Source: Vicinamibacteria bacterium
Lineage (GTDB): Bacteria > Acidobacteriota > Vicinamibacteria > Fen-336
NCBI GenBank assembly: GCA_023701125.1
Contig: JAMPXO010000018.1
Coordinates: 1-57,854 of the forward strand
DNA: 57,854 nt
Reading direction: 5' to 3'
A model generated the notes under the pieces. The model ran no database searches. It was not told where the DNA came from and worked only from the letters and a program-made list of their open reading frames with translations. The translations under genes were made by a program, and so were the position numbers. Shown piece by piece: positions 19,455 to 23,510 of the stretch (the stretch's first letter is position 1; each line of letters opens with the position of its first letter).

Positions 19455-21821
19455 TCACGCGGGGGTGGAGGTCACCGCGGCCAGCGCCTGCTGGAACTCC
19501 TCGGCCGAGAGCGGCTTGGCCAGCACGCAGACGCGGGTGAGGCCGCGCAGCCGCTCGCGCGCGGTCGCGTCGAGAAAGCCCGTGGCGAGGATCACCGGGA
19601 GATCCGGCCGCTGCTGGCGCAGCCGGGCCAGGGTCTCGACACCGTCGAGGCCCGGCATGTTCTGGTCGAGCAGCACGACGTCCCAGTCCCCGCCGTGCTC
19701 GAGCATGCCGAGGGCCTCGAAGCCGCTGGTGGCGACCGCCACCTGGTGGCCCATCGCCTCGAGCAGGGCCGGCCAGGTCTCGCGCACCAGCGGGTCGTCG
19801 TCGACCATCAGGAGGCGGAAGGCCTGGCCGGCGCGGGGCCGGGTCGTCGCCGCCCGCGGTGCCAGCGGCCGGTCGCCGAGCACCACCGGCAGCGTGATGA
19901 GCACCCGCGTGCCGAGGCCGGGCTTGCTCTGGATCTCCACGCTGCCGCCGTGGGCCTGCACCGCACCGAAGACCCGGGACAGCCCGAGGCCGGTACCCTT
20001 GCCGACCGGCTTGGTCGTGAAGAACGGCTCCATCGCTCTCGCCAGCACCTCCGGCGGCATGCCGTGACCAGTGTCCTCGACCGCGAGCTCGACGTGGCGC
20101 TCGCCGCGGCGCGCCGTGCTCAGGACCAGCGTCCCGCCCCCGGGCATCGCGTCGAGCGCGTTGACGCAGAGGTTCATCAGCGCGGTGGAGAGCGCGGACG
20201 CGGAGCCCAGCAGCTTCGGCAGGTCCGGCGCCAGCTCCGTGCGCACCGCGATCCTCTGCAAGGTGGTGCTGGCCAGCAGCTCGCTCTCCTGGCGGACCAA
20301 CTCGTTGAGGTCGAGCAGCGCCACGCCCTCGACCGCCTTGCGCGAGAACTCCATCAGGCCCTGGATCAGGTCGCGCCCGCGGCGGCAGGCCTGCAGGATC
20401 AGGTCGGCGTCGCGCCCGGTCTCGCCGCCGCGGTCCTCGAGCACGGCCCCGACCGCCATGATCGCGGCCAGCACGTTGTTCATGTCGTGGGCGATGCCAC
20501 CCGCGAGGCGGCCGACGCTCTCCATCCGCTGCAGGTGCTGGAGCTGGGCCTCCAGCGAGCGACGCTCGTGCTCGGCCACCTGGCGGGCCGTGATGTCGCG
20601 CACCATCGCCACCACCTCGTCCGTCCCGCAAGGCACGATCCGCGCCTCGTAGCTCCGCTCCACGCCGTCCACCGGGAGCAGGTAGGTGATCTCCTGGGCC
20701 AGCCGGGAGTCGAGCGCGTCGGCGAAGGCCTTCTTGAGCCTGGTGGACACCGGCGGCGGCAGCACTTCCGCAACGCCGCGGCCGATGAAGTCCTCCTTCG
20801 GCGCATACAGCAGCCCGGGATCGGGCGCGTGGACGGCGACGAACCGGCCATCCCGGCGGAGCAGGAAGATCAGGTCCGGGATCGCCTCGTACAACGCCTG
20901 GTTCTGGGCCAGCAGTTGGCGGTGGGCCTCCTCCTGTCGGCGACGCTCGGTGACGTCGCGCCACACGCACTGGTAGTGGGCCAGCGGACCGACGCGGACG
21001 TACTGGGCGGTGACGTGGACGTTGCGGAACTGACCGTCGCGGGTGCGCTGCAGGGTCTCGAAGTCCTCGACCCCGCGCTCCATGACCCGCCGAATCGTGT
21101 CCCGGGTCTGCTCCGCGCTCTCGTTCGCCTGGACGTCCATCACCGTCAACCGCGCGAACTCCTCGCGGCTGTAGCCGAGCTGCCGGCAGGCCTGGTCGTT
21201 GAACTCGAGGATGCGGGCGGTCCCGGGGTCGATCAGCACGATGCCGTCCGGGCTGTGGTCGAAGAAGGCGCGGTAGCGCTCCTTGGCGTGCTCGAGCTCC
21301 ACGGTGCGCTCGCGCACCTGTTCCTCCACGATCCCGTTCCTGAGCACCAGCGCCGCGTGGTTGAAGAAGGCGGACAGGTCGCCCTGGAACTCCGCCATGC
21401 CGACGTGGAGATCCTCGATCCGCAGCACGGCGACGACGTCGGGCCCGACCGTCAGCGGATGGACCCAGGTGTAGGCATGCGGGAACTCGGACGACTCCAT
21501 CAGCGTGCGCGCGGCGTCGTGGACCCGCTCCACGGGCGCGCCGCTCTCGAACGCGGTCCGCACGTCGGCGTCGTCCACCTCGCGCATCCGCGCACGACGA
21601 CCGGACAGCTCCTGCAACGCGTACTCGCCGCCGATCCGGTAGTACAGGGCGGTACCGGTGCCGCCGATGACCTCGACCACGCCCTGCAGCAGGGCCGCGA
21701 CCACGTTGTCCAGGCCGGGGCTGGCCGGCACCCGGCTCATCAGCCGGATCAGCAACTGGAGATAGGACTTCTCGGCGGCCAGCTTGCGCAGGCGCTGCCT
21801 GAGGCCAGGCGTGTCAGGCAT
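19455..21821 (-). CDS. Hybrid sensor histidine kinase (GAF-PAS-PAS-HisKA-HATPase-REC)
   Basis: A 788-residue soluble kinase with no membrane segment. Residues about 25-170 look like a GAF domain, about 185-295 and 310-420 are PAS domains (the first with DHSPDGIVLIDP). The HisKA box GGIAHDMNN carries His445, followed by the N box (LMNLCVNALDAMPGGG), G1 (EDTGHGM) and G2 (GKGTGLGLS) of the ATPase. A C-terminal receiver (from about 670) has MVDDD and the phospho-acceptor Asp719 in VVLLDQNMPG. It overlaps the UroD-like gene by 8 nt and has no partner regulator beside it. The ligand sensed may be connected with the corrinoid genes; that is inference. Confidence 0.92.
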   Translation of the reverse strand: MPDTPGLRQRLRKLAAEKSYLQLLIRLMSRVPASPGLDNVVAALLQGVVEVIGGTGTALYYRIGGEYALQELSGRRARMREVDDADVRTAFESGAPVERVHDAARTLMESSEFPHAYTWVHPLTVGPDVVAVLRIEDLHVGMAEFQGDLSAFFNHAALVLRNGIVEEQVRERTVELEHAKERYRAFFDHSPDGIVLIDPGTARILEFNDQACRQLGYSREEFARLTVMDVQANESAEQTRDTIRRVMERGVEDFETLQRTRDGQFRNVHVTAQYVRVGPLAHYQCVWRDVTERRRQEEAHRQLLAQNQALYEAIPDLIFLLRRDGRFVAVHAPDPGLLYAPKEDFIGRGVAEVLPPPVSTRLKKAFADALDSRLAQEITYLLPVDGVERSYEARIVPCGTDEVVAMVRDITARQVAEHERRSLEAQLQHLQRMESVGRLAGGIAHDMNNVLAAIMAVGAVLEDRGGETGRDADLILQACRRGRDLIQGLMEFSRKAVEGVALLDLNELVRQESELLASTTLQRIAVRTELAPDLPKLLGSASALSTALMNLCVNALDAMPGGGTLVLSTARRGERHVELAVEDTGHGMPPEVLARAMEPFFTTKPVGKGTGLGLSRVFGAVQAHGGSVEIQSKPGLGTRVLITLPVVLGDRPLAPRAATTRPRAGQAFRLLMVDDDPLVRETWPALLEAMGHQVAVATSGFEALGMLEHGGDWDVVLLDQNMPGLDGVETLARLRQQRPDLPVILATGFLDATARERLRGLTRVCVLAKPLSAEEFQQALAAVTSTPA

Positions 21822-22845
21822 CGAGCGCCCCGTACCGGCAAGCGGCGGCGACCAGTGCCCGGATGTTGACCTCGGGGATCGCCAGTGGCATCAGCAGCGT
21901 CCCGAACAGGAACCGGCCGCCCGGCTTGCCGGCTTCGACCAGGCGCTTCACCTCCTGCTCGACCTGGGCCGGGGCCCAGTCGATCATCGGGATGTCGTTG
22001 AGGGCCGCGCAGCACAGGGCACGGCCGGCGATCCGGGCGCGGCCCTCCGCCACGTCGTCCAGCGGGCTCAGGTAGAAGGCCTCGACCCGGGTCCGCTCGA
22101 GCACCGTCTCGATCACCGGGTTCACGCGTGCGGCGCCGCCGTAGTAGACGAGGCCGGCGCGGCCCGCGGCCTCGATGTCGCGCTCGATCCAAGGCAGCGA
22201 CTGCTCGCGGAAGAAGCTCATCGGCACGAGGTCGGTGGATCCGAACGGGTTGGAGTAGACGATCACGTCGGCGCCGGCGGCCCGGCAGGCGCGGACCTGG
22301 CTGACGAAGAAGTCGTGGCACTTGGCGAGCAACTCGTCGCGCAGCGTGCGCGGGCCGGTCAGCAGCAGCGGCAGCCAGCGCTCCATGCCCATCAGCAGCA
22401 CCGGCAGCGTCATCGTGGCGGTGACGTAGGCGCAGATCGGGAAGCGACCGCCGGCCTCGCGGCGCAGGATGTCGAAGCACTTCCGCGGCTGCTCGAAGGC
22501 CGGGTGCGACAGGACGTCCGCGGGCGGCTCCAGCCGCGGCACGTCCTCGACGGTGCGGATCACCATGTGGCCGACGTTCGGCGGACCGTCCTCGGCGTAG
22601 ACCATTTCGCGGCAGCCGAAGAACTCCGCTTCCCTGCCGACGTAGAACAGGCCCCACAGGTTGTCGTACCCGTACTTCTCGCGCATCCGCAGCTGCGCCT
22701 CGGCCACGTGCTCGCCGGAGGCGTAGTACTCGCGCGGGCCGATCCCGAGCAGGCGGGCGCCCTGGTCGAGCAGGTTGCAGAAGACGGGGATGCGGTCGGC
22801 GGGCGTGCCCTCCATCGCCGCGTGGAGACGGGCGAGCGCGTTCAC
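21814..22845 (-). CDS. Uroporphyrinogen decarboxylase-family (MtaA/MtbA-type) methyltransferase
   Basis: A 343-residue TIM-barrel protein of the URO-D superfamily. It begins with the family pattern NALARLHAAMEGTPADRIPVF and later shows the strand EVNIRALVAAA near the C-terminus. The conserved Arg residues of true HemE are not evident, and the partner gene encodes a corrinoid protein, so a cobalamin-dependent methyltransferase role is more likely than haem synthesis. Such proteins in methanogens and acetogens move methyl groups to or from the bound corrinoid. GTG start overlaps the upstream stop (GTGA), and the gene's own end overlaps the kinase start by 8 nt. Substrate unknown. Confidence 0.82.
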   Translation of the reverse strand: MNALARLHAAMEGTPADRIPVFCNLLDQGARLLGIGPREYYASGEHVAEAQLRMREKYGYDNLWGLFYVGREAEFFGCREMVYAEDGPPNVGHMVIRTVEDVPRLEPPADVLSHPAFEQPRKCFDILRREAGGRFPICAYVTATMTLPVLLMGMERWLPLLLTGPRTLRDELLAKCHDFFVSQVRACRAAGADVIVYSNPFGSTDLVPMSFFREQSLPWIERDIEAAGRAGLVYYGGAARVNPVIETVLERTRVEAFYLSPLDDVAEGRARIAGRALCCAALNDIPMIDWAPAQVEQEVKRLVEAGKPGGRFLFGTLLMPLAIPEVNIRALVAAACRYGALDA

Positions 22846-23510
22846 GGGCCACCCGCCTCGCCGACCAGCCGGACGACGACCGGGACGGCCTCGATGGCGG
22901 ATCGCGCCCAGGCGTCCGCCTCGACGACCTCGAACAGCCTCTCGTCGAAGCGATACGGCGCGCCGCCGACCACGACCTTCAACTGCTGCTCGAGGCGCCG
23001 CTCGCGCAGGATGCGGCGCACCCCGCGGCAGCCGTGCTCGCCGCGGGCCGTGTGGACCATCATCGAGGAGACGGCGATGACCTGGGCGTCGCGGGCCAGC
23101 GCCTGCTCGACGAAGCGCTCGGCCGGGACGTTCATGCCGAGGTCCGTGACCTCGATCATGTGGGCCGACAGGCAGCCGGAGACGATCCGCTTGCCGAGCG
23201 CGTGGAAGTCGCCGACCGCGGTGCCGATCACCACCCTGCCGGCCACCTGGGGCGCGCGCCGGAAGCGCGGGAGCATCGCGTCGACCACGTCGCTCGAGAT
23301 CTGGGCGGCCAGGAAGTGCTGGGCCACGCTGAGGCCGCCATCGCTGGCCGCCAGCCCGCACAAGTGGTCCATGCAGGGCACCACGACCTCGAAGACCACC
23401 TGCTCCGGCGAGACGCCCGCGGCGAGCGCCTGCCTGACGAGCTGCAAGGCCTTGTCGCCGTCGGTGTCGACGATCGCTTCCGCGAAGCCCGTGGCCAGGT
23501 GCTGGATCAT
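22842..23510 (-). CDS. Corrinoid (B12-binding) methyl-carrier protein
   Basis: A 222-residue two-domain protein. An N-terminal helical cap (about residues 1-85) resembles the B12-binding-2 helical domain. A Rossmann-like domain then carries the diagnostic GDFHALGKRIV loop, in which His103 would be the lower axial cobalt ligand, followed by VIAVSSMM and VVVGGAPY. It is of the MtaC/MtbC/MetH-module type that carries a methyl group on cobalt. Two mutually exclusive hairpins lie directly before its ATG. It is the first gene of the three-gene operon. Confidence 0.9.
   Translation of the reverse strand: MIQHLATGFAEAIVDTDGDKALQLVRQALAAGVSPEQVVFEVVVPCMDHLCGLAASDGGLSVAQHFLAAQISSDVVDAMLPRFRRAPQVAGRVVIGTAVGDFHALGKRIVSGCLSAHMIEVTDLGMNVPAERFVEQALARDAQVIAVSSMMVHTARGEHGCRGVRRILRERRLEQQLKVVVGGAPYRFDERLFEVVEADAWARSAIEAVPVVVRLVGEAGGP

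Follow-up and report, generated by a model that had tools for sequence, protein, structure and literature searches.

A corrinoid-binding protein (COR), a UroD-fold methyltransferase-like protein (URO), and a hybrid sensor histidine kinase are encoded by overlapping genes in a Vicinamibacteria bacterium of the phylum Acidobacteriota. This arrangement raises the question of whether COR and URO are a metabolic methyltransferase pair under the control of the kinase, or whether they are the sensory part of a signalling system. We analyzed the locus in the window, namely the whole stretch of 57,854 nucleotides (contig JAMPXO010000018.1 of assembly GCA_023701125.1), and compared it with its relatives in other genomes. 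The results indicate that the operon probably encodes a dedicated corrinoid-based signalling module located in the cytoplasm.

Results

Operon structure and the corrinoid-binding protein

As described in the earlier note, COR, URO, and the kinase form an operon on the minus strand, in which the successive genes overlap by 4 and 8 nt. The features of the operon are summarized in Table 1. A divergent gene for an MgtE-type transporter lies upstream of the operon and a gene for an M19 dipeptidase lies downstream; no tie of these flanking genes to the module was seen. No Rfam match was obtained in the whole window, and hence no annotated B12 riboswitch was present.

Table 1 Features of the COR-URO-kinase operon, with positions in the window
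Feature	Position	Strand	Description or basis
COR, corrinoid-binding protein: cap (B12-binding_2) and B12-binding domain	22842..23510	-	222 aa; Pfam and solved relatives
DxHxLG cobalt-ligand loop of COR (D101, H103, G106)	23193..23210	-	read in translation
URO, UroD-fold methyltransferase-like protein	21814..22845	-	343 aa, GTG start; Pfam and structure model
Y234-Y235-G236 of URO, at the position of the MtaA HxC zinc ligands	22138..22146	-	alignments
COR/URO overlap, 4 nt (GTGA)	22842..22845	-	gene coordinates
URO/kinase overlap, 8 nt; site of DUF1638 in most relatives, empty here	21814..21821	-	
Hybrid sensor histidine kinase	19455..21821	-	788 aa; Pfam and motifs
Module-specific GAF input domain of the kinase (predicted), aa 1-179	21285..21821	-	alignment, model, fold match, co-occurrence
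PAS domain 1 of the kinase, aa 181-290	20952..21281	-	Pfam
PAS domain 2 (PAS_4) of the kinase, aa 312-414	20580..20888	-	Pfam
HisKA of the kinase, aa 437-495, phospho-acceptor H445	20337..20513	-	Pfam and motif
HATPase_c of the kinase, aa 541-646	19884..20201	-	Pfam
Receiver domain of the kinase, aa 671-780, D719	19482..19811	-	Pfam and motif

COR matched the Pfam domains B12-binding (4e-21) and B12-binding_2 (2e-8), and its best solved relatives were methylamine corrinoid proteins. The B12 loop, which had been read as intact, was indeed complete (D101-x-H103-x-L-G106), and D101, H103, G106, and K107 were invariant across 35 relatives. COR is predicted to hold a cobamide in vivo. A cap joined to a B12-binding domain with DxHxxG is the architecture of the methyltransferase cognate corrinoid proteins (TIGR02370), and COR has it; its score against this family was 101.8 bits, compared with a cut-off of 215.3, and it fell below every NCBIfam cut-off.

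The UroD-fold protein and its lost zinc site

URO matched URO-D of Pfam (4e-38). Its structure was predicted with a pLDDT of 95.9, and the best match of the model was MtaA (4ay7; Z 36.1, rmsd 2.4 over 330 residues, 20% identity), which suggests that URO adopts the UroD (beta/alpha)8 fold. The score against TIGR01463 (MtaA/CmuA family) was 68.8 bits, compared with a cut-off of 235.4. Because both this score and that of COR against the cognate corrinoid family were far below the cut-offs, the two proteins were placed in their superfamilies only, and not in those families.

In proteins of the MtaA/CmuA type, as established for MtaA, the thiol-activating zinc is bound by the two residues of a His-x-Cys pair together with a distal Cys. 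These positions are taken by Y-Y-G and Leu in URO of the window. Across an alignment of 83 close relatives of URO, the zinc His was absent throughout (83/83), with Tyr in nearly all of them, and the distal Cys was found in none (0/83). The Cys of HxC was kept in 67 of the 83 and is replaced by Gly in the window. URO is therefore unlikely to perform the standard methyl-to-thiol step. The earlier designation of URO as a UroD-family methyltransferase stands for the fold, given the URO-D and MtaA matches, but URO is without the zinc ligands of the methyltransferases to which it had been likened. The alignment of relatives also revealed invariant cysteines (C23, C78, C123, C138, and C176), and URO of the window departs from the family consensus at some positions (G236 and A280).

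Conservation of the gene order in other genomes

To collect relatives of URO, the genomes of about 85,000 species were scanned with the URO profile, using two peptide patterns; 128 relatives were obtained, 80 of which were kept, and their neighbourhoods were read within about 7 kb. The loci were picked by the URO sequence only, and therefore the gene neighbourhood is an independent observation. Many of the loci come from metagenome-assembled genomes, so that the taxonomy can err (L074 and L076 are near-identical and were assigned to different phyla). COR was located directly upstream of URO at 79 of the 80 loci; at the remaining one, the contig ends with only 289 bases upstream. The 4-nt COR/URO overlap was kept in most relatives, and COR and URO were fused at seven loci.

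A search for the same three-gene order had been proposed in the earlier note, and the order of COR, URO, and kinase proved to be conserved in about a dozen phyla. The refuting condition named in the note, a lack of this order in every relative, thus did not hold. Loci with URO were observed in Thermodesulfobacteriota, Acidobacteriota, Verrucomicrobiota, Chloroflexota, Nitrospirota, and Myxococcota, and further in Bacteroidota, Hydrogenedentota, Ignavibacteriota, and many Pseudomonadota, aerobic methanotrophs and iron oxidisers among them. Since the order recurs in many phyla, the arrangement is not due to chance. When 396 genomes of the phylum of the window were searched, three others carried URO (55-62% identity), and all of them had COR, URO, and the kinase in the same order. 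A distant family of the same phylum (about 30% identity) showed the order COR-URO-DUF1638-kinase, or had DUF1638 and the kinase fused (L045-L047, L051-L054).

Vertical inheritance of the operon in the lineage of the window was considered and found no support. No close copy was found in the other genomes searched of the same genus or family, and the acidobacterial copies were scattered on the URO tree. A search of the 100 nearest genomes yielded a close URO only in the genome of the window itself.

The dedicated GAF domain of the kinase

The kinase matched PAS, PAS_4, HisKA, HATPase_c, and Response_reg of Pfam, and has the residues and boxes of a hybrid histidine kinase (H445, N-box at 550, G1 at 583, G2 at 607, and D719 and K769 of the receiver). 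Its N-terminal domain had no Pfam match. The model of this domain (pLDDT 90.9) matched the GAF domains of PDE6, PDE5, and PDE2 with Z of 15-16. Hence, all the parts of the GAF/PAS hybrid histidine kinase named in the earlier note are present, with the GAF domain assigned by its predicted fold. With COR and a close URO overlapping and this specific GAF domain following on a signalling protein, the operon of the window has the makeup of the module.

At 63 of 76 loci, the signalling protein carried this GAF domain. When the 396 genomes of the phylum were searched with a GAF profile, it was found in exactly four genomes, which were those with a close URO, and each time at the operon. The chance coincidence of two sets of four among 396 would arise about once in 10^9 draws, computed as if the four were independent. 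The 42 genomes that were reached via the loci contained 41 copies, distributed over 34 genomes, and all but two of these copies were beside COR-URO. The extra copies belonged to second signalling genes of the same operon or to second operons (L176; the pair L064/L065), and the two copies that stood alone without COR-URO were those of L174 and L175.

Furthermore, pairwise distances were compared over 38 loci. The distances of URO and GAF were correlated with r of 0.825 (0.775 without close pairs), whereas those of URO and the kinase core, taken from the same polypeptides, gave r of 0.337 (0.148 without close pairs). COR and URO have thus retained their GAF domain through replacement of the kinase core. 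In L123 and L127, PAS-GGDEF-EAL follows the GAF domain in place of a kinase. The kinase of one subgroup, most members of which have a COR-URO fusion, is without this GAF domain, and an ethylene-receptor-type domain comes first in four of the seven kinases read. The co-occurrence of GAF, its co-variation with URO, and the exchange of the output are the best evidence for a joint function of the GAF domain and COR/URO.

DUF1638, the reductive activase, and other neighbouring genes

A protein of about 200 aa containing DUF1638 (PF07796) was encoded between URO and the kinase at 64 of the 78 loci with enough sequence, and it was fused to the kinase in L066, L079, and L096 as well as in the distant L045-L047. 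No relatives of DUF1638 were found in the PDB by sequence. On the URO tree, the pattern of its presence and absence required 11 changes, with supported branches forcing eight or more of them; DUF1638 was therefore repeatedly lost or gained, and a three-gene ancestor with a single gain of DUF1638 found no support.

A RACo/RamA-type activase (2Fe-2S and ASKHA domains) was encoded upstream of COR at 40 of 72 loci by profile, and in 27 of the 42 upstream neighbours that were tested by Pfam. The window operon has neither DUF1638 nor RACo, the members of the module that are common without being universal. No DUF1638 was found in the genome of the window, and one gene for a RACo/RamA-type activase lies on a separate contig, next to genes for an MttB-like methyltransferase, another corrinoid protein, and a homocysteine S-methyltransferase. 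The statement of the earlier note that a RamA-type activase is missing thus holds for the operon and not for the genome, and about half of the relatives have an activase in the operon. Accordingly, its lack is a feature of some members only, and we discarded the idea that it is a special trait of the whole group. Because RACo and DUF1638 are missing and some positions are off the consensus, the copy in the window could be a reduced or altered one.

No acceptor methyltransferase was found among the neighbours scanned, within a few kb; an acceptor enzyme may still be encoded farther away. The other neighbours were mostly signalling proteins, that is, kinases, receivers, and proteins with PAS, GGDEF, EAL, and HD-GYP domains. 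For example, Methylobacter tundripaludum SV96 has a run of REC-HD-GYP, RACo, COR, URO, DUF1638, and GAF-kinase-REC, with a convergent GGDEF gene.

Discussion

The coupling of COR and a UroD-like protein to the kinase, which had been put forward from the overlap of the genes, was strongly supported by the gene order over about a dozen phyla, the dedicated and co-varying GAF domain, and the signalling neighbours. We consider that the module would operate as follows. COR would carry a cobamide on the DxHxxG loop, and URO would dock on COR, as UroD-fold methyltransferases do on their corrinoid proteins. URO would act as a chemical probe: most likely, a small donor would supply a methyl or similar group, which URO would load onto the cobalt and not pass on to a thiol. 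The resulting state of COR/URO, alkylated Co(III), Co(I), or Co(II), would be read by the N-terminal GAF domain, which would set the autophosphorylation of H445 and then the relay through the C-terminal receiver. The corrinoid of relatives may be kept competent by RACo, which re-reduces Co(II), and by DUF1638, and at the window locus the RACo encoded elsewhere may serve. The contact of COR/URO with GAF, the signal sensed, and the direction of the response are our inferences. Taken by itself, the version in which the kinase reads the methyl state is possible, though we place it somewhat below an even chance.

Three other explanations were weighed against these results. COR and URO may be a metabolic methyltransferase pair whose expression is governed by a two-component system of its own, a kind of control that has been suggested for the mec cassette; the kinase would then sense the substrate directly via GAF/PAS, and COR and URO would only be its target genes. 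In the mec cassettes, a kinase and a response regulator are indeed combined with a corrinoid protein and UroD-type methyltransferases (PMC9768040), and RACo at 40 of 72 loci suits a turnover enzyme and would fit a working methyltransferase. However, no acceptor methyltransferase was found among the neighbours scanned, the zinc site of URO is gone, and the neighbours are mainly kinases and proteins with REC, GGDEF, EAL, or HD-GYP. In addition, GAF tracks URO and not its own kinase core, and many of the outputs are enzymes of c-di-GMP signalling and not transcription factors. We therefore regard a purely metabolic pair as unlikely. The same degree of doubt applies to a redox or oxygen sensor, in which the cobalt state of COR, Co(I) or Co(II), would itself be the signal, URO would be a scaffold or cap, and RACo would set the poise with no methyl donor; this is a sub-version of the corrinoid sensor, and its probability overlaps with that of the latter. 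The frequent presence of the reductive activase RACo in the operon and the invariant cysteines of URO are consistent with it. So is the life of many hosts (Gallionella, Mariprofundus, Methylobacter, and Magnetococcales) at oxic/anoxic interfaces, but a complete UroD barrel with conserved mouth residues would not obviously be needed for such a sensor.

That COR is a green-light B12 photoreceptor of the CarH kind is very improbable. COR keeps the base-side His (H103), its H65 aligns with the His of the CarH EH motif when the sequences are read by eye, and B12 photoreceptor proteins are among its weak PDB matches. The CarH-type signature consists of GxxW and EH (PMC11796333), whereas no Trp was among the common residues of this stretch in 35 members and Q64 takes the place of the Glu, and on this ground a CarH-type photoreceptor was rejected. 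A light sensor also does not account for URO, RACo, or DUF1638.

Returning to the signalling module, we tentatively propose, at close to an even chance, that it represents an undescribed signalling class. In such a class, a corrinoid unit (COR and a zinc-less UroD-fold protein, often with its own activase and DUF1638) would have been turned into a sensor that samples a methyl donor or the redox state by cobalt chemistry, and would pass the result through one dedicated GAF domain to an exchangeable output, either a histidine kinase or GGDEF-EAL. No published description of a COR-URO-GAF module was found in the literature searched, which held few subscription papers and no preprints. If this proposal is true, many different environmental bacteria, among them aerobic methanotrophs and iron oxidisers, would use B12 chemistry as sensory input to their two-component and c-di-GMP signalling, and DUF1638 and stand-alone UroD-like proteins would gain a context. 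Named carriers such as Methylobacter tundripaludum SV96 and Mariprofundus sp. KV make the module directly testable.

Comparison with known systems

COR has the cap and the B12 domain with DxHxxG in common with the methyltransferase cognate corrinoid proteins MtbC, MttC, and MtgC, for which 7xcn, 3ezx, and 1y80 were its best solved relatives, and differs from them in conserved features of its own, for example Q64-H65. Similarly, URO shares the UroD fold with MtaA, MtbA, and CmuA, but its identity to MtaA (4ay7) is 20%, its score is far below the family cut-off, and it is without the zinc His and the distal Cys. Genetic work in Phaeobacter linked DUF1638 and a RamA-like protein, both required along with a B12 methionine synthase, to the reactivation of B12 (PMC5764234). 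As in many relatives of the operon, the two belong together with a B12 protein in this system of the Alphaproteobacteria; unlike the module here, the system as described has neither a UroD-like protein nor a kinase (PMC5764234).

Of the systems described, the methyltransferase-associated kinases of Methanosarcina (PMC11784639) and the mec cassette (PMC9768040) come closest, and neither of them is described with the GAF/RACo/DUF1638 arrangement. MsmS and RdmS of Methanosarcina acetivorans are, like the window kinase, soluble and associated with corrinoid/UroD methyltransferases. The genes of the latter, the Mts fusion proteins, are presumably their neighbours, and the Mts proteins of this organism are catalytic. 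MsmS and RdmS are without an H-box and are not autokinases, and RdmS has been termed methyltransferase-associated (PMC11784639); the window kinase, with H445 and a receiver, is not of this type. The mec cassette of anaerobic dichloromethane metabolism resembles the operon in that its kinase is encoded in one cluster with a corrinoid protein and members of the UroD superfamily, whereas it differs in being a catabolic cluster with several methyltransferases including MTII and a kinase with a PocR domain (PMC9768040).

Variants of the operon in other genomes

In four loci (L109, L111, L112, and L113), the kinase encoded after DUF1638 starts with an ethylene-receptor-type domain, ETR1_N (PF25487), which replaces the GAF domain; these loci belong to a subgroup in which the corrinoid-binding protein (COR) and the UroD-fold methyltransferase-like protein (URO) are a single fused protein. 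Two copies of the GAF domain (L174 and L175) were observed standing alone, without COR-URO nearby, and their genomes (Sulfuritalea and Thiobacillus) carry a COR-URO operon as well. The operons of L074 and L076 were near-identical, with 97% across the kinase N-terminal region, and their genomes are labeled Alphaproteobacteria and Bacteroidales. This near-identity probably reflects a binning error or a very recent transfer.

B12-related features of the window's genome

An IclR regulator was found near the MttB cluster on contig C52. On contig C88, the CarH-like regulator and MetH are a few kilobases apart.

B12-related features in the window and elsewhere in its genome
Feature	Location	Strand	Remark
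MttB, corrinoid protein, RACo, and homocysteine S-methyltransferase cluster	C52 (L178:1970-7930)		Separate from the window operon
MerR-type regulator with B12-binding domains (CarH-like)	C88 (L179:9271-10254)		
Complete MetH with activation domain	C88 (L179:3790-7497)		
COR Q64-H65	Window 23313-23321	-	Conserved Gln-His, cap domain of this corrinoid family

The Gln-His of COR may contact the upper face of the cofactor. The B12 photoreceptor CarH has Glu-His at apparently the same cap position.
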